IMG/VR virus record: IMGVR_UViG_3300025407_000047
Span: 1 to 43,772 of that record
DNA length: 43,772 nt
Source: a virus
Strand: one strand, 5' to 3'
Part shown: in pieces, positions 15,541 through 43,772 of the stretch
Layout: the number at the start of each line of letters is the position of its first letter
How positions within the stretch are numbered: the stretch's first letter is position 1
Position numbers and translations under genes: made by a program
The notes under the pieces: generated by a model
What the model was told of the DNA's origin: nothing
Database searches by the model: none
What the model saw: only the letters and a program-made list of their open reading frames with translations

Positions 15541-15770
15541 GTAAAAATAAAAGAAAAAATCGGAGGAGGTTCAGGTCGCTAATGTTCGATGCCGCCCCCC
15601 TAGTAAACTAGCGTTAGCCTCTCGACTCACCCCCTCAATGCCTCCTCCGATTATAAGCGTCTAACCGAGTCCTTTAAGATCAATCAGAGCAGTGGTTCAC
15701 CGAAGATCCCCACGAAATATGACCCAAAGGTTTGAGCATCGTTGATAGGCTTTCTGGGTGCTATTGTTAC
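15541..15770 (-). ncRNA. Candidate structured noncoding RNA ending in a U-tract
   Basis: On the minus strand a promoter-like TTGACA/TAGGGT pair (15800-15773) is followed by about 230 nt with no coding frame I can support. The RNA ends with a 12-bp closing stem, AATCGGAGGAGG (15652-15641) with CCTCCTCCGATT (15569-15558), directly followed by a T-rich run to 15541. Inside the 71-nt loop are nested short pairings (GTCG/CGAC, CTAA/TTAG) and a CTAG-TTTA-CTAG hairpin. Size, closing helix and U-tract resemble a phage small RNA. I recognise no known family; the start is approximate. Confidence 0.45.
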
Positions 15771-15772
15771 AA

Positions 15773-15800
15773 ACCCTATGCACTTATCAACAAGTGTCAA
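15773..15800 (-). promoter_or_regulatory. Promoter with operator-like palindrome
   Basis: TTGACA (15800-15795) and TAGGGT (15778-15773) are spaced 16 bp. The perfect inverted repeat CACTT-N6-AAGTG (15781-15796) covers the spacer and touches the -35 box, an ideal place for a repressor. Likely drives the candidate RNA downstream. Confidence 0.4.
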
Positions 15801-15807
15801 GCCTTTG

Positions 15808-15843
15808 TAAACTTTCTAAACTCCCTAAACTCCCTAAACTCCC
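15808..15843. repeat. Four tandem 9-bp units
   Basis: Plus-strand units TAAACTCCC occur three times in perfect tandem (15817-15843), preceded by a degenerate TAAACTTTC (15808-15816). They lie between the tRNA gene and the promoter at 15773-15800. Could be an iteron-like or regulator-binding array, or slipped-strand repeats. Confidence 0.7.
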
Positions 15844-15850
15844 TATAAAT

Positions 15851-15924
15851 TGGCTACCCCTCATGGACTTGAACCATGACAAACAGAGTCAAAGTCTGTT
15901 GTGCTACCATTACACCAAAGGGTA
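15851..15924 (-). tRNA. tRNA-Gln (anticodon TTG)
   Basis: A 74-nt cloverleaf can be folded by eye. The acceptor stem TACCCTT pairs with AGGGGTA, the discriminator base is G and CCA is encoded. The D arm is GTGTAATGGTAGCAC. The anticodon stem is ACAGA/TCTGT with loop CTTTGAC (TTG at 34-36). The T arm is CATGG-TTCAAGT-CCATG. It reads CAA codons. It is isolated between small genes and may also serve as an attachment site, though no integrase is seen in this window. Confidence 0.93.
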
Positions 15925-35859: not shown

Positions 35860-38800
35860 TTATTTTTTGGTGTTTATTATGAGAGGAATTTTGGATTTTT
35901 TCATTGTTCCAACAATCGTTTCCTTAGTTCCGTTCCTTACGGATTCCTTTGGGTGATTCTTGGCATAATCAGGGAACAATGACATAGGATCGACTGGTTT
36001 CTCAAGGATAAAATTGTCTGCGTTTTCAGGCCCAAGCATCATCCAGTCATATGATGGGTGTTTCCTGAAGTTAGGATCTTTCATAAACTGATCGCGTAGG
36101 AATCTTTCATTTTCGCTCATCTTGGCCTCTTGTTTCGGATCGTTTCCTGTGTAGATGGCAAATGCGTCAGGATCTTTAGAGAGTTGAACAGACGCTACTA
36201 GGTCAAGGTTCTTTCCGCCCCTGAAGTCCATAGACTCCGCCAAACGCTTTCCGATGGGTGGAGCAAAGGGAATACCATCAAGACGACTCATAGCCGATCC
36301 TCGTTCCACAAAAGTGAATCTGGATGCCTCGTCTTGGAATGTCGTGTTCTTGTACTTGTTTACGATCTTCTTGTACCAGTCTTGATTCTTGAATTGGTCA
36401 TTGTGAGCCTTGAATGCATTATCAAACCCTGCTCTGTTGCCCTTAGTCGCCATTGATTTCATGGTTCCCAGCTTTTTAAGGAAATCAACCTGTGGGCCGT
36501 ACTTCTCAATCTTGTCGGCGTTTTGGCTCTTGATAAGCTCAAACTCGCCCTGTGTGATCTCGCCATCCTTCAATAGCTTTGCGGCCTTCGTCACGCGAGC
36601 TAAGTGCTTGGCAGGGTTTTTAGCACCTAGTTCAAGAATGACATGGAGAGCGTCTTTTTCGTCAGCGGAAAGGTTTTTCTTTGTGCTGTCAATCTCCTGC
36701 ATGATGTCCTGAACGAACTTGCGGTTGCTCTTGTGAGCCTGCTCTTTCATGATTTGGATCAAGGCTCGACCACTAGTTGTGTTGGTTATGATATTCTTTG
36801 CTCTCGTAACAAACGCAGAATTCATATTTGCCCACACTGGCTTAAATCCGCGCCCATCAAGTAGGCGTGCAATAACTTGATTGGAGATCAGGAATGGGTG
36901 CAATGGGCCGCCCATGTTGTCGCCGCGAGTTGTGTGCCTATCTGCCTCTAGCATACCAACTTGTTCGCCGTCGATGTCTTCGATAGAACCAACTTTTGGA
37001 GTGATTGTGGATTTTGGGTCTACTTGGTATTGAACTTCCCTGCCGTCATCTGTGGGTTGCATCGCAATGGTGTAGTGACCACTTGCTGGCACATTCTTTG
37101 GAAGTTTTGTGGAAACTCCTGCCTTTTGAACTGCATCAGGCTTATCAAGTTCAATTTCCTGTGCAGGCTTGAAGCTGATGCCACCTAGCGGCGCGAGGTT
37201 CGCCAGCGGCTTGGCAGTCTCCAGCGTCTTAGTCTTGAACGATTCCCAGTCTACCTTTCCGTCCTCGGTCTTTGGAAGCTCGCTGGACGGCATGAAGTTG
37301 ATGTTGCTTTGGTTCTCTAGCCATTTCTCCACTTTAGAGACAGCATCAGCCATATCCTTTGGAGATGGGTTTTTGGGAACTTCTACCCAATAATCATTTT
37401 TCCCAAATTCCAATTCCCTAAATGGTGATGGATCGTGATTTCGGATGGATATTTTATAGGTTTCAACATCATCTGGATCTCCTTCTTCGTCGCGTGTCAG
37501 GATGTGATCAACGCGATAATAAATGCTGTCATTTGCTGTGTCTCTTACTTCTTTTAACAGCATATCGGAAGGAATATGTATCTCTTCCATTATTTCACTT
37601 CTTGCGTCTCGCTGAAGATTATGCTGATCACTTGATGGAGCAGATTCAACATAATGCCTTGCTTGACTCATGGCATCTTCTAAAGTTTTGTGGTCATAAA
37701 ACATCCCATCTTCTCCCTTGGAGACATCAAATAAACCATCATCGTTTTTTGTTATAATTGATTCTCTTTCATTTTTAGGAGAAGATACAACCCAAAGTTC
37801 ATTACTAATTACATCTCCTTCAGCATCTTTTTCTGGAGGTTGATGATAAACAACAGAAGATCCTTTAGAAGATTGGCTTTTGATAAGATCATCATATTTT
37901 CTTACTAAATCATTCCTTGTTTTTTGTTCATTAGTATACTCCTCATCCGCAGGCATGAACTGGATGCCTGTGTCGCCATCGCGTGCATAATTCACCATGT
38001 CGCTGTGCAGAACACCGCGATCATAGTTTACTTGGTCTTCAAGAGTCTCTGGCTTCTTTAGCTGACCATTCTGCTCTGCAATGCTGAATGCCTCCCTACG
38101 ATCAACAACGCGAGGCGCGCCATGCGGATTGTATGTTCTGAACTTCCACCATTTTCCCTCTCTGTCAAAAGGGTCTTTTGGTGCATTTGGGCCTTGTAGT
38201 TCAAGGTGGGTAGCACCCTCTTTTTCAACTTTACCCTGTGGCGTTGTAATAACAGCAGAAACAATCTTCTCGTTTGTTCCTGCGTATGGCTCTGTAATTT
38301 TGGATGGGACTTCCTTGCCATCAATAACATCAAAGATGTTTTTGAAGTCACGCTGGTTTGCAAAATTATATTTATTTCCTTCTGGGTCTGTATAATAAAA
38401 TGGATCGTCAGAAAGGTCAGCAGGGTTTGCTCGCTTCCATTCGCGTACAATATCAAGAAGCGTACTTCTCCTTCCAATAAATTCATTTATGCCCTTAACT
38501 GAATACATTAATCTAATTGATACTTCTGGCGCATAAACAATTTTAGTGTTTCCAAAATATGCAGTATCAATTGATTCAAGTTTTGGTGCAATAAATGCAG
38601 TAACAAGTGATAAATCAATATTTTTTACTTTTTCAAGTTTCGGAACAGCAACTTGAGATGGGCCTCTTATATCTAGTGTAGTAACTTTTTCTAGTGAAGA
38701 AAAATCAACATTTTTATTATCCGCCATTCTGGTCTGCGATCCAAATTCAATACTTTTAGCAGTTTTAAGTTTTGGAACTATTAAATCATTAGCGTGAGAA

Positions 38801-41800
38801 ATATGTATTCGACTTGCTGTTTCTAATTGAGGCAGGTTTATTTTATTTGCGTAATAAAACCAAACATTCCCAGATTCTTTAAGTAATGGAAGATTAACTT
38901 CTCCAGCAGAATCTCCTCCAATTGCTCCTACTTTTTTTAGGTTTGGAAGATATACATTTGTGATATTTGCAGTAAGTATTTCTCCTGCGCTTTCCAAATA
39001 TGGAAGTTCAAATGTTTCGCCATTTCTCTTATCAACACGCACCATTATTTTTCCAGAAACATTTTTGTATTTATTATTATTTGGGTCTTCTGGAGTCCAC
39101 ACAAGGCCAGTTAACAGGTTTCCATTTTTATCAAGAATGTCTTCAGTTTTAGGTGCATTATCAATAAATGGTTGAAGGTATTCTTGCTCAAATCCATTTC
39201 CATAGTCTCTTTGCTTTGGTGATGGTGGGTAAAAAACTCCATTTTGATCATAATATTTGTATGCGTCTACTGGCAAAACGCCTGTTTTTATTATTTCAAC
39301 AGCCATTTTCCTAAAATTCCTATCATGGAGGTATTTGTCTCCTCCAGTTGGGCCTTCTCCACCAAGAATAAATTTCTCTGCTTCTGCGTCATATTGTGGC
39401 GCAGTAATATTCTGGGCTTTTCCTGTTCCTCTGACTTCAGCAATTTCTCCATTCTCTGTGCGTATTGCTATTTGAGGACTTCCCTCGTCAAAGTACAGAT
39501 AGAAGTCACCACCAGTAAGATGGCTATTCGCAGTTCCTACAGATCCACCTGTACACCATCCAGTGCCAGCGCAGTCTGCGTTCAACTTCTCTGCCTGACC
39601 CATGTCGGATGACTGATCATACTTCTTCCAACCTGTGTAAACTCCGCGCTTTTCGGCGCGAGCTTTAATCACATCAAATACGCCTTTTGTGTAGGCGTCT
39701 TTTGATGACATCCCTTGGCGCATATACTCCGCAATCTTTGAAGCGGTTGCGCCTGAAACCTCGTTGGGAACAGCCTCGTTTCCGTTGCTGATGTTCTGGA
39801 TGAGCGGAACCATCTCGCCCTCTTCGTTGTAGCCAGCGTTAATCCTAAACTTGGATGAGGCGTTTAGAATGGCGGCTACTTCGGCTGGAGTGTAAGAGCC
39901 TTGGATTTGTTCTCTTTCGATTGCCCTTTCAGCAGATTGAAGTGATGGATGTATTTCTTCTACTTTACCATCCTTTAATACAGCAAAACCTCCATATTCT
40001 CCTGATTGGTATTGAACAGAGTATTCTGGTTGGCGTGATGATTCTTTCATCTCACCCAACAAATAGTTAACACTATTTGCAAGAGCATTTACCCTGAACT
40101 GCGTGATCTGATCTACCTTGTCCTGATCAAATGACCTGTTGAACTCCTCCTGACTCATGTTGCGGATACGAAGCCAGTCTGGGGGGAAGTCTGCGGCCTG
40201 TGCAGGAGTAGCGTTACGAACTACCTTCTGGTAGTAGTTCTTGATCTTTTCTGGGTCTATTTTGGGGAAAAGAGTTTGTTTTTCTACAGGTTGCCTAAAG
40301 TTTGTTTGTAGCAATGAATATTTTTCTTTTACATGACTATGAATCCATTTATCCAGAGCCGCCATTGTGGCAGGCTTGTCTTTGATGCCGCTGTTCTCTA
40401 GCTCGCGGTTCCAGAACTCAAGGTGTTGAGGCGTTCCCTCCTCGCGGATCTCGGCAGAGGCAGGCATGAACTGGATGCCAGTAGTCGCCACATATTTACC
40501 CCTGCGTTCCTCACCCTCTGATCCTGTGCCAGTATATCGCTCTGGAACAACAGCAACATCAGGCATGAAATTCCTTATCGCCTTTCCGTAGTCCACAGGA
40601 ACCTTCGGCGCGTGTTCGTTGTCCATCAACTCCGCCATGTGATCCAAGCGCATTGACATGATCGTGCGATCAATGTCCTTTCCGCGCACATCACCGCGCC
40701 TGCGAGGTGTCCTAGTGCGATCTTCGTTCAATCCCCTGAAGTCGTTGGTCGTCAGGTTGAGGAAGTCGTTGAAGATGTTTTTCTTTGCTAGTGCCTCGGC
40801 AGGCGTACCAGCCAGTCCAGTCTCTCCTGCGAGTCCATTCTGCCAGTTCTGGAGGTACTTCTCGGTGAACTCCTTGAAGAATGCGTTCTTGTCACCGCCC
40901 CAAGGTGATAGTCGCGCAGGCATCCGCTGGCTCCATGCGTTTAGCTTCTCAAACATCCTGCCGACAGAAATTGTAGTAACAAGGAAATTTCCGTCCTTGG
41001 AGAGGTGCATTCCGATGGGAACCACATCGTAAACCTTTGGTGAGTAAGCCGTGTACTTACCTGCGTCGTTCATGACGGCGGCATAGTCCACAAGCATACG
41101 AGATCCATCGCCCCTGACAATTGCGTCGTTGATTTTGAGAATATGATCCTTGATCGACTTGGGAATGATGCCCTCTGGCAGGTCTTTGATAGCCTGAATC
41201 TGTAGCGGCGTGAATGTTCCGCGCCATGTTTCTGAGTTGTCTGCTACAGGCTGAAATCTGTTAGGAGTTCCCTCATCAGGCGTGTTCAGTGCCTGCATGA
41301 TGGTGTCCTTGCGAGCCTTTTGTAGCTTCTTGGCCTCCGCTGGCGTATACATCGCAGGCGTGACGCCGTCTGCCTCGGTAACGAATGCCTTGCTGACGAC
41401 TAGCTTGCCGCCATCAGGTATTGCCATTCCCTGAACCTCATCAGGCTTCTGTCCGTAGCCAGAAAGCTGTCTGTCAGTCGCCCATGCGCCTTCTGCGGCG
41501 GCAGGGTTGGTAATGTCAACAGGTGCGCCTACAGGGTTTCCTGCGGCGTCGTAGACCTGTCCCTGCATCTTGGTCTTGAAGAGTCCGCTGTACTTTCCGT
41601 ACTTCTCCATGATGGCGCGGTTCTTGATCATCAACGCCCTGCTGATCTTCGGTGCGTCTGGAGCCTTTACCGCAGGCGAAACCTCGCCCTGCAAGGCTTG
41701 TAGAGCGCGTATGGCCTGCCTATTGGCGGCTAGTACCTCTGGGGAGAACTCCGCCCCTGTGAGAGGGTCTACAGGACTGCCTTTTCCGCCCAGTCCAAAG

Positions 41801-43772
41801 AACTTTTGAACCGCCTTGTCGAGCAGGTTTTTCTTGGTCTTGATGGTAGCCAGATCCATTAAATGGAGCGTTGCTGAGTCCAGATCCTTGCCAAGGTGGT
41901 TTGAAAGCGTGCCAGCGTTGAGTTGCGCGATGATCTCGTCCTTCATGTAGGTGGCAACAGCCTGCTCATTGAGCGCGCCGCGCGTTTCGTCCCACAGGCC
42001 AGCCAGCTTAGAAAGCTGTTCAAACTGCTCTGGGCTTTTGCCTCTCATGTAGTTGTTCTGGTACATATCCACCAAGTCCTTGGTGCTGTACTTGCCAGAT
42101 GTTGTAGCCGTTACATTTCCGTTCAGATCCTTGATTTCTTGGCTGAATAGCAGGTCTTCGGCGTCCTTATTAGCCTCCCTGAACTCAGGGATGTTACGGA
42201 TGTGGTGACCGAATTCGTGCGTGAGTGCCTCAATCGGAGTCTCTCCAAATATCTGTTGGCGAGCCTTCAGGTGATTCGCGTTTATGACGATTGATGGCTT
42301 CGTGCGATCAAAGATCAACGGCTTCTTTTCGCCACCCATTGGCATCCCTGCCTGATACTCTACGGCTCCCTCTGGCGTGCTATAGAACCCCTGCTGGTTA
42401 GCGGTCTCCATTACCTCGGCATCTGTCATGCCATTGTTGGCAGGGTCTTGCCTGAACTTAGCAAAAATCTGGTCAGGTGTTAGGATGTGGACGCCGACAT
42501 TGTTCTGTCCTGCGCGTAGCGTTCCGTTGGTAAGTTCGTTCAGCTTGGTAAGCTGAGTCAGGAACTGGCGGCTAAATTCGTTGCGTGTTTGGACATTGGC
42601 TCGCGTTACGGCGGACAGCGTCTTCTTCTCTTCGTTGAGAGCTTTACCCAGCTTTTCTGCATCCTTACTGCCTGAACGGACAGCATCGTTGTAAGCCGCA
42701 TACGCTTCAGAAACCATCTTTTCGTGACGCTTGATCACATTGTCCCAGCTAGTCAGGCCGTTCATGGTCTTCTGGGTCTCAGGATCAAGGCTCTTGTATG
42801 TCTTGTAATCGTCTACTGCCTGCTGTTGGCGTTCACGCTGTTCTACCACAGGGTCAACGCCTGTGATTTTACCAAGGACATGGTGCAACGCCCTTCCTCC
42901 TACGCCGTACAGCAATCCAGTCGATAGCATCTGGTTCCTTTCTTCTGGCGACGCCGAATCAAGTGCGCCAGTACCAAGTGCTATCAATGTTGGGTGAATG
43001 CCAGCCTTCGCGTACTCAACGGAATTATTGATGATGCTATCTAAATTCTTTCCGCCGAATCTCAGGATTTTGGCGGTCGATTCGCTGACATCAGGTAGTG
43101 ATCCAAGCGTTTCAAATGTACCCTTGCTACCACCAGCCGCTATCGCGCGAGCCTCGTCGATGTCCCTGATCAATGCAGGAGCTTTGGCGGCATACGCGCC
43201 AAGTTTTAGCAATGGAGCGGCTCCATGACCTACAGCACCGCCTACCAACGCCCCAAATAATGGGTGTTCCTTGTCGGTCTCATACCCAGCGATAGCACCA
43301 ACGCCGACAGGAAGGACTTTTTTCAGTCCCTCTGGCGCGGCTTCTCCAAGTGCCTTTAGCTTGTCAACACCCTCGGCAATTGCGCCTGCGGTGCGACCAA
43401 CCATTGATGGCTGTTGCCTCTTTTCTAATTTTTCCGCAAATTTCTGTTTCTGCAACGCTTGCGCGGCGTCGTTCATCGCCTTGATTTCGGCGTCAGTCTT
43501 TCCAAGATACTTCAGACCCTGTGCGATCTTAGGAGTTAACCCCATCGCCGTTTCTGCGGCTAGTCCAACTGCTCCCATCTCGCCTAGACCAAGTCCTGCT
43601 GGCATTATGAATGAGCCAGTGAGCGCGATGTCCTCGTCAGCGGCTTTCTCCTCTGCGGCGGCTTGAGATGTGGTCTGCTGGGCGATCTGATCCGCCATCG
43701 ATTGGCGTTTTGCCTTCGCCTGCTCTTCGGTGATTCCATCCTGCTCCATGATGGTCTTGGTGTCAGGAAGGC
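35860..43772 (-). CDS. Giant multidomain virion-type 'polyvalent' protein, partial (open at right edge)
   Basis: At least 2,629 residues. An in-frame ATG is at 43749, but the frame stays open to the edge (codons before it read LPDTKTI), so the true start may be outside. Numbering from that ATG: Ala/Gly-rich hydrophobic segments at about 30-270; an HExxH metallopeptidase site THEFGHHI (511-515) with an acidic DEII near 607; a Trp/Cys motif GTGWCTGG near 1395; an LRR-like solenoid with period about 20 (x-L-P-x-L-x(3)-x-x-I) at about 1575-1745; and a C-terminal domain from about 2160 with GDNMGGPLHPFL. (N/Q)FMP motifs occur at 1061, 1094, 1931 and 2152, plus IMPA at 49. Such proteins are packaged and ejected or act in the host. 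Each module could act alone after cleavage. Confidence 0.72.
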   Translation of the reverse strand, partial: LPDTKTIMEQDGITEEQAKAKRQSMADQIAQQTTSQAAAEEKAADEDIALTGSFIMPAGLGLGEMGAVGLAAETAMGLTPKIAQGLKYLGKTDAEIKAMNDAAQALQKQKFAEKLEKRQQPSMVGRTAGAIAEGVDKLKALGEAAPEGLKKVLPVGVGAIAGYETDKEHPLFGALVGGAVGHGAAPLLKLGAYAAKAPALIRDIDEARAIAAGGSKGTFETLGSLPDVSESTAKILRFGGKNLDSIINNSVEYAKAGIHPTLIALGTGALDSASPEERNQMLSTGLLYGVGGRALHHVLGKITGVDPVVEQRERQQQAVDDYKTYKSLDPETQKTMNGLTSWDNVIKRHEKMVSEAYAAYNDAVRSGSKDAEKLGKALNEEKKTLSAVTRANVQTRNEFSRQFLTQLTKLNELTNGTLRAGQNNVGVHILTPDQIFAKFRQDPANNGMTDAEVMETANQQGFYSTPEGAVEYQAGMPMGGEKKPLIFDRTKPSIVINANHLKARQQIFGETPIEALTHEFGHHIRNIPEFREANKDAEDLLFSQEIKDLNGNVTATTSGKYSTKDLVDMYQNNYMRGKSPEQFEQLSKLAGLWDETRGALNEQAVATYMKDEIIAQLNAGTLSNHLGKDLDSATLHLMDLATIKTKKNLLDKAVQKFFGLGGKGSPVDPLTGAEFSPEVLAANRQAIRALQALQGEVSPAVKAPDAPKISRALMIKNRAIMEKYGKYSGLFKTKMQGQVYDAAGNPVGAPVDITNPAAAEGAWATDRQLSGYGQKPDEVQGMAIPDGGKLVVSKAFVTEADGVTPAMYTPAEAKKLQKARKDTIMQALNTPDEGTPNRFQPVADNSETWRGTFTPLQIQAIKDLPEGIIPKSIKDHILKINDAIVRGDGSRMLVDYAAVMNDAGKYTAYSPKVYDVVPIGMHLSKDGNFLVTTISVGRMFEKLNAWSQRMPARLSPWGGDKNAFFKEFTEKYLQNWQNGLAGETGLAGTPAEALAKKNIFNDFLNLTTNDFRGLNEDRTRTPRRRGDVRGKDIDRTIMSMRLDHMAELMDNEHAPKVPVDYGKAIRNFMPDVAVVPERYTGTGSEGEERRGKYVATTGIQFMPASAEIREEGTPQHLEFWNRELENSGIKDKPATMAALDKWIHSHVKEKYSLLQTNFRQPVEKQTLFPKIDPEKIKNYYQKVVRNATPAQAADFPPDWLRIRNMSQEEFNRSFDQDKVDQITQFRVNALANSVNYLLGEMKESSRQPEYSVQYQSGEYGGFAVLKDGKVEEIHPSLQSAERAIEREQIQGSYTPAEVAAILNASSKFRINAGYNEEGEMVPLIQNISNGNEAVPNEVSGATASKIAEYMRQGMSSKDAYTKGVFDVIKARAEKRGVYTGWKKYDQSSDMGQAEKLNADCAGTGWCTGGSVGTANSHLTGGDFYLYFDEGSPQIAIRTENGEIAEVRGTGKAQNITAPQYDAEAEKFILGGEGPTGGDKYLHDRNFRKMAVEIIKTGVLPVDAYKYYDQNGVFYPPSPKQRDYGNGFEQEYLQPFIDNAPKTEDILDKNGNLLTGLVWTPEDPNNNKYKNVSGKIMVRVDKRNGETFELPYLESAGEILTANITNVYLPNLKKVGAIGGDSAGEVNLPLLKESGNVWFYYANKINLPQLETASRIHISHANDLIVPKLKTAKSIEFGSQTRMADNKNVDFSSLEKVTTLDIRGPSQVAVPKLEKVKNIDLSLVTAFIAPKLESIDTAYFGNTKIVYAPEVSIRLMYSVKGINEFIGRRSTLLDIVREWKRANPADLSDDPFYYTDPEGNKYNFANQRDFKNIFDVIDGKEVPSKITEPYAGTNEKIVSAVITTPQGKVEKEGATHLELQGPNAPKDPFDREGKWWKFRTYNPHGAPRVVDRREAFSIAEQNGQLKKPETLEDQVNYDRGVLHSDMVNYARDGDTGIQFMPADEEYTNEQKTRNDLVRKYDDLIKSQSSKGSSVVYHQPPEKDAEGDVISNELWVVSSPKNERESIITKNDDGLFDVSKGEDGMFYDHKTLEDAMSQARHYVESAPSSDQHNLQRDARSEIMEEIHIPSDMLLKEVRDTANDSIYYRVDHILTRDEEGDPDDVETYKISIRNHDPSPFRELEFGKNDYWVEVPKNPSPKDMADAVSKVEKWLENQSNINFMPSSELPKTEDGKVDWESFKTKTLETAKPLANLAPLGGISFKPAQEIELDKPDAVQKAGVSTKLPKNVPASGHYTIAMQPTDDGREVQYQVDPKSTITPKVGSIEDIDGEQVGMLEADRHTTRGDNMGGPLHPFLISNQVIARLLDGRGFKPVWANMNSAFVTRAKNIITNTTSGRALIQIMKEQAHKSNRKFVQDIMQEIDSTKKNLSADEKDALHVILELGAKNPAKHLARVTKAAKLLKDGEITQGEFELIKSQNADKIEKYGPQVDFLKKLGTMKSMATKGNRAGFDNAFKAHNDQFKNQDWYKKIVNKYKNTTFQDEASRFTFVERGSAMSRLDGIPFAPPIGKRLAESMDFRGGKNLDLVASVQLSKDPDAFAIYTGNDPKQEAKMSENERFLRDQFMKDPNFRKHPSYDWMMLGPENADNFILEKPVDPMSLFPDYAKNHPKESVRNGTKETIVGTMKKSKIPLIINTKK

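Follow-up and report, generated by a model that had tools for sequence, protein, structure and literature searches.

A phage small-RNA gene encodes an abiF-family RNA that may mimic the antitoxin of host AbiF

A small-RNA gene of the phage record studied here opens with an RNA hairpin (15758-15722, minus strand) whose membership of the abiF family is near certain, and we consider it probable, at roughly two chances in three, that this phage-encoded RNA is an antitoxin mimic which acts in trans to neutralise the AbiF of the host. AbiF is a HEPN ribonuclease of the Abi_2 family (PF07751), and abiF RNA is its antitoxin. What was found is thus a known RNA antitoxin, carried by a phage whose record has no gene for the toxin. 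The basis in hand for this reading is the identity of the family, the conservation of its structure, the lack of abiF in the records, its recurrence in unrelated phages, and a hairpin that is present, absent or replaced at one site among close relatives. The anti-AbiF function is suggested by homology, by lone occurrence and by published work in which a C. difficile homologue neutralised AbiF in trans.

Layout of the small-RNA gene

The window, i.e., the whole stretch of DNA analysed, is an IMG/VR record of 43,772 bases. The small-RNA gene is on its minus strand, between a tRNA-Gln gene (15924-15851) and a gene at 15524-14994, and its predicted product runs for about 215 nt after the promoter. 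The features are as follows:

15851-15924, minus strand: tRNA-Gln (TTG), upstream neighbour of the small-RNA gene (ARAGORN; Rfam tRNA, 62.9 bits)
15809-15845, unstranded: 9-bp tandem units, three exact and one degenerate (sequence; relatives)
15772-15800, minus strand: promoter TTGACA-N17-TAGGGT (sequence; conserved in the clade; weak by consensus alone)
15782-15797, unstranded: palindrome CACTT-N6-AAGTG in the promoter spacer (sequence; not conserved in relatives)
15722-15758, minus strand: abiF RNA hairpin (RF03085) in an exchangeable cargo slot (40.9 bits against a cut-off of 37; covariation)
15651-15715, minus strand: module B, a hairpin with conserved GGGGATCTTCGGTGAACC and a variable second stem (weak covariation support)
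15558-15652, minus strand: module C, a 12-bp closing stem with a conserved CA bulge and a variable apical domain (covariation)
15543-15557, minus strand: U-rich tract after module C, likely an intrinsic terminator (sequence; U-rich tail in many relatives)

The promoter consists of TTGACA at 15800-15795 and TAGGGT at 15777-15772, both on the minus strand, and the RNA is predicted to end in a 12-bp stem, in which AATCGGAGGAGG (15652-15641) pairs with CCTCCTCCGATT (15569-15558), followed by the U-rich tract. A simple promoter and terminator scan did not make the small-RNA gene stand out. Its folding energy is weak evidence (z -1.95, with 7 of 200 shuffles folding equally well), and therefore the case for a small RNA rests on comparison. 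Relatives of the window's clade were found by the terminase and neighbouring genes; none of the named phages in the phage collection was related to the window phage by terminase. In the relatives found via the terminase gene the promoter, closing stem and U-rich tail are retained, the promoter taking the form TTGACA, 16-17 nt, TA(G/A)(G/A)(A/G)T (e.g., TAGGAT, TAAAAT, TAAGAT). The original prediction of an independently promoted small RNA with nested stems is supported by this conservation of promoter, stems and terminator.

The same prediction had taken a perfect palindrome in the promoter spacer and four tandem 9-bp units (AAACTCCCT three times and the degenerate AAACTTTCT once) for control elements flanking the promoter. 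Both are present as sequence; neither is conserved in relatives, and as control elements they are therefore unsupported. The operator reading of CACTT-N6-AAGTG was rejected, the palindrome being disrupted where relatives keep the promoter (e.g., CAGATATTGATAAATG, CACTTTTTGATAAATG), and upstream of the same promoter the 9-bp repeats vary in number or are missing altogether (L248, L250, L276). A candidate regulatory pairing seen in the fold, in which the spacer TTGTTGATA pairs with the abiF loop TATCAAC, is likely due to chance, because the spacer is upstream of the expected RNA start and because relatives without the abiF hairpin have similar spacers.

Elsewhere on the minus strand of the window, 33451-34146 matches the Erv1/Alr sulfhydryl oxidases (PF04777, 28.5 bits, just over the curated cut-off), which are unusual in phage, and 35860-43749 is a single open frame of 2,629 residues.

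Identity and conservation of the abiF hairpin

Scored with the covariance model at the curated gathering score of 37 bits, the 5′ element matches RF03085 at 40.9 bits and over its full length (model positions 1-37 of 37). This match and the tRNA are the only two over Rfam's curated cut-offs in the whole window, and no CRISPR repeat family was matched there at the same cut-offs. The original prediction could not place the RNA in a known class, which by Rfam's cut-off is wrong for its 5′ part. It had also treated it as one RNA; the small-RNA gene is there, and its RNA is made up of at least three modules (the abiF hairpin, B and C), the first of which is exchangeable cargo.

The hairpin has a 6-7 bp stem, the bulge CAAACC, a 3-bp inner stem and a conserved loop, with AAGCCTATCAACGATGCTCAAA of the window agreeing with the conserved loop of RF03085. 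Its outer stem reads CCCAGA/UUUGGG against CCCGCC/GGCGGG in the Rfam consensus and is fully paired, all six outer pairs (one of them G-U) and the three inner AGC/GCU pairs being formed. The 37-nt motif, the loop core and the covarying stem are those of bacterial abiF RNA (RF03085; AbiFr of PbAbiF, PDB 8VZ6; RCd22, PMC12373285). In C. difficile this RNA is transcribed upstream of abiF and binds AbiF directly, and it neutralises AbiF also in trans, an effect abolished when its stems are destabilised (PMC12373285). The structure of AbiF with its ncRNA is PDB 8VZ6, and AbiF is regarded as ancestral to Cas13 (PMC12737573). A bacterial AbiF encoded beside the same core (L124) matches PDB 8VZ6 over its full length and is close kin. 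Unlike the bacterial RNAs, the window copy is without a downstream abiF, lies behind its own promoter within a phage array, precedes two other RNA modules and has C rather than U at model position 29.

Among 45 distinct viral hairpins, 87.3% of cells are paired compared with 70.5% after shuffling, and there are 70 double changes where 20.9 are expected, a level reached by none of 500 shuffles. The shuffles overstate the significance because members of the set are related; slid registers of the same alignment keep this relatedness, and every one of these controls fails. The evidence that the abiF stem structure is under selection in phages is strong. Compensatory changes in homologues, which the original prediction had called for, are thus seen in this hairpin as well as in the closing stem described below.

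An exchangeable slot and two further RNA modules

In the window's clade the site consists of a conserved promoter, a variable cargo and then modules B and C. The cargo slot holds the abiF hairpin in the window, is empty in L244, L279 and L307, and is occupied by tRNA-Trp in L242, L243 and L321 and by one of several other hairpins in L248, L250, L252 and L276. Four more abiF-type hairpins occur in such arrays of the clade (L260, L262, L266, L340); they keep 7-bp stems in three sequences, all unlike that of the window, and have other apical loops, and those of L262 and L266 exceed the Rfam cut-off. Besides tRNA and abiF, no Rfam family was matched above cut-off in the cargo slots of relatives. 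Other small structured cargo RNAs recur in the arrays, marked by GGAATCATTGCTGG (L248, L260, L261, L262), GGAATCAGGCGAAGCCCG (L269, L276, L354) and AAAGGTTCCATCTGATTGAC (L261, L316, L318, L354).

Module C has the core GGCATTGAGGG / TAGCGACCTGAACC within its 12-bp stem, around a freely variable apical domain. Its closing stem covaries (30 double changes against 9.4 in shuffles, 0 of 500), its core pattern is found in 12 viral contigs, and it ends the small-RNA arrays of the window, L248, L260-L263, L275-L279, L307, L340 and L347-L357. At the curated cut-off no Rfam family matches it. The core of module B, GGGGATCTTCGGTGAACC, occurs in 38 viral contigs, with weaker covariation support than module C; module B has no Rfam match above cut-off, and none of 388 genomes from the phylum of L204 (Lentisphaeria) has its core.

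Lone copies and their tRNA neighbourhood

An exact search of IMG/VR with the 22-nt core returned at least 119 contigs besides the window, many of them fragments and one (L084) a fragment identical to the window. The lone abiF RNA recurs in cyanophages, mycobacteriophages, Arthrobacter phages and the window's clade. Among named genomes, S-CREM1 has it between tRNA-Asn and tRNA-Gly, annotated as abiF (PMC9964418), S-SZBM1 has a copy abutting tRNA-Ala and Arthrobacter phage Mimi one between tRNA-Tyr and tRNA-Lys, both without annotation, and Mycobacterium phage Thibault is another carrier. Upstream of the core match, L096 and L108 have a tandem pair of abiF-type hairpins, as in RCd22 of C. difficile.

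Among the matches listed, 50 of the 119 viral copies are within 30 nt of a tRNA, compared with 5.8% of random positions in the same loci, and none of 120 bacterial copies is so placed. In many viral copies the tRNA begins immediately 3′ of the hairpin. Viral and AbiF-linked copies differ at model position 29: of 59 distinct viral copies 41 have C there, and of 15 AbiF-linked ones 1 has C and 14 have U, although these copies are not independent; the C might alter or tune activity in the phage copies.

These observations bear on the main rival explanation, that the abiF-type hairpin has been co-opted without any contact with AbiF, for example to help process or stabilise tRNA and small-RNA transcripts. 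The tight tie to phage tRNA genes, with several copies exactly abutting the tRNA 5′ end, would fit such a role, as would the difference at position 29 and the varying apical loops in the window's clade. We nevertheless regard it as unlikely. The loop core AAGCCTNTCAACGATGCTCAAA, the hallmark of AbiF-linked RNAs, is identical in many phages, and its full retention argues against a processing element, which would need the stem only. Moreover, many phage copies have no tRNA nearby, the window copy is about 90 nt from its tRNA and has its own promoter, and loop variation is also seen in a bacterial abiF RNA (L417).

Copies without a toxin gene

Abi_2 (PF07751) gave no match in the window record even at E ≤ 1, and where bacteria have the toxin gene within tens of nucleotides of the RNA, the window has modules B and C and no AbiF gene. 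The family was likewise absent from 118 of the 119 further IMG/VR records with the core, among the matches listed; the sole viral record with AbiF there is L054, where the gene is directly downstream of the core. No Abi_2 was found in the whole genomes of S-CREM1, S-SZBM1, Thibault and Mimi. In bacterial species genomes, 63 of the 98 loci that have this core and 600 bases or more downstream of it carry an adjacent AbiF, compared with 1 of 109 viral loci, among the matches listed. The other 35 bacterial loci are lone abiF RNAs, mostly of Bacteroidales. Since bacterial contigs have lone copies too, a lone copy is in itself no proof of counter-defence. At Bacteroidales loci such as L122, L123, L144 and L164, lone abiF RNA genes have a U-rich tail and no adjoining AbiF.

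Alternatively, the RNA could belong as antitoxin to a complete toxin-antitoxin or superinfection-exclusion module whose toxin is encoded at another locus of the phage or has diverged beyond recognition. Some prophages carry AbiF systems (PMC12373285; L054), and the window record may be incomplete. We consider this very unlikely all the same in view of the Abi_2 searches above, which include four whole named phages, and of the genes that follow the viral copies, which are unlike AbiF (e.g., a polymerase-like gene in one group). A passive relic, i.e., a hairpin acquired with host DNA and without function in the phage, would agree with its being missing in close relatives and is highly improbable, as it is opposed by strong compensatory stem evolution in phages, by the spread of the hairpin over several phage groups and by the retention of promoter and terminator.

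Counting against the antitoxin mimic, abiF RNA over the cut-off is patchy among bacteria. Of 299 genomes sampled from the order of Gordonia 5 have it, as do 20 of 388 from the phylum of L204 (Lentisphaeria), and AbiF adjoins it at 4 of 6 and 7 of 10 of the loci read, respectively.

A proposed antitoxin mimic and its relation to known systems

The toxin-less copies in at least 100 other phages, often in tRNA clusters, suggest that this RNA serves phages to disarm host AbiF. As we envisage the antitoxin mimic, the small-RNA gene would be transcribed during infection, and the phage abiF RNA would bind a putative host AbiF and hold it inactive. AbiF would thereby be kept from cutting RNA and stopping the cell, and the phage could replicate.

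That phages can mimic host defence RNAs with RNAs of their own is known in principle from pseudo-ToxI (PMC3475682) and Racr (PMC10651486). Pseudo-ToxI of phage PhiTE is likewise a phage mimic of an RNA antitoxin, with the same proposed mode of action, but it is directed at the toxin ToxN rather than the HEPN protein AbiF, forms a repeat array and has been tested experimentally (PMC3475682). Racrs are also solitary phage copies of an RNA normally bound by a host defence protein; they copy CRISPR repeats, whereas the window RNA copies an abortive-infection antitoxin RNA (PMC10651486). The closest counterpart is the abiF sRNA of S-CREM1, which is also a lone copy beside tRNA genes in a phage without an AbiF gene. 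The passages on it describe an Rfam match thought to be functional in infection and make no link to AbiF counter-defence (PMC9964418). Beyond S-CREM1, the present analysis shows that the pattern is wide, that the hairpin covaries and that its site is exchangeable. In the literature searched, the original AbiF-Cas13 paper aside, we found no proposal that lone phage abiF RNAs act against AbiF, and an array of exchangeable small RNAs with two uncatalogued modules appears to be new.

A study by Rince and colleagues from 2000, cited in PMC12737573, is said, by its title, to concern a DNA region of phage sk1 that protects phage 712 from AbiF. We found no RF03085-like RNA in the lactococcal phages sk1 and 712, so this protection is not explained by the RF03085 family.

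A broader and more tentative reading, which we think unlikely, is that the clade carries an anti-defence RNA array in which one promoter serves exchangeable decoys, each for a different RNA-binding host defence protein, abiF being the only module whose target is recognisable today. If so, modules B and C and the other cargo hairpins would mimic RNA antitoxins or guide RNAs of undiscovered defence systems.

The antitoxin-mimic reading, if true, would make RNA-based counter-defence against AbiF common among phages and explain small RNAs that lie unannotated within the tRNA clusters of phages. Cas13 is held to descend from AbiF, and the Cas13 guide from the AbiF RNA; the cargo RNAs of phages would then offer a route to new RNA-protein defence systems.
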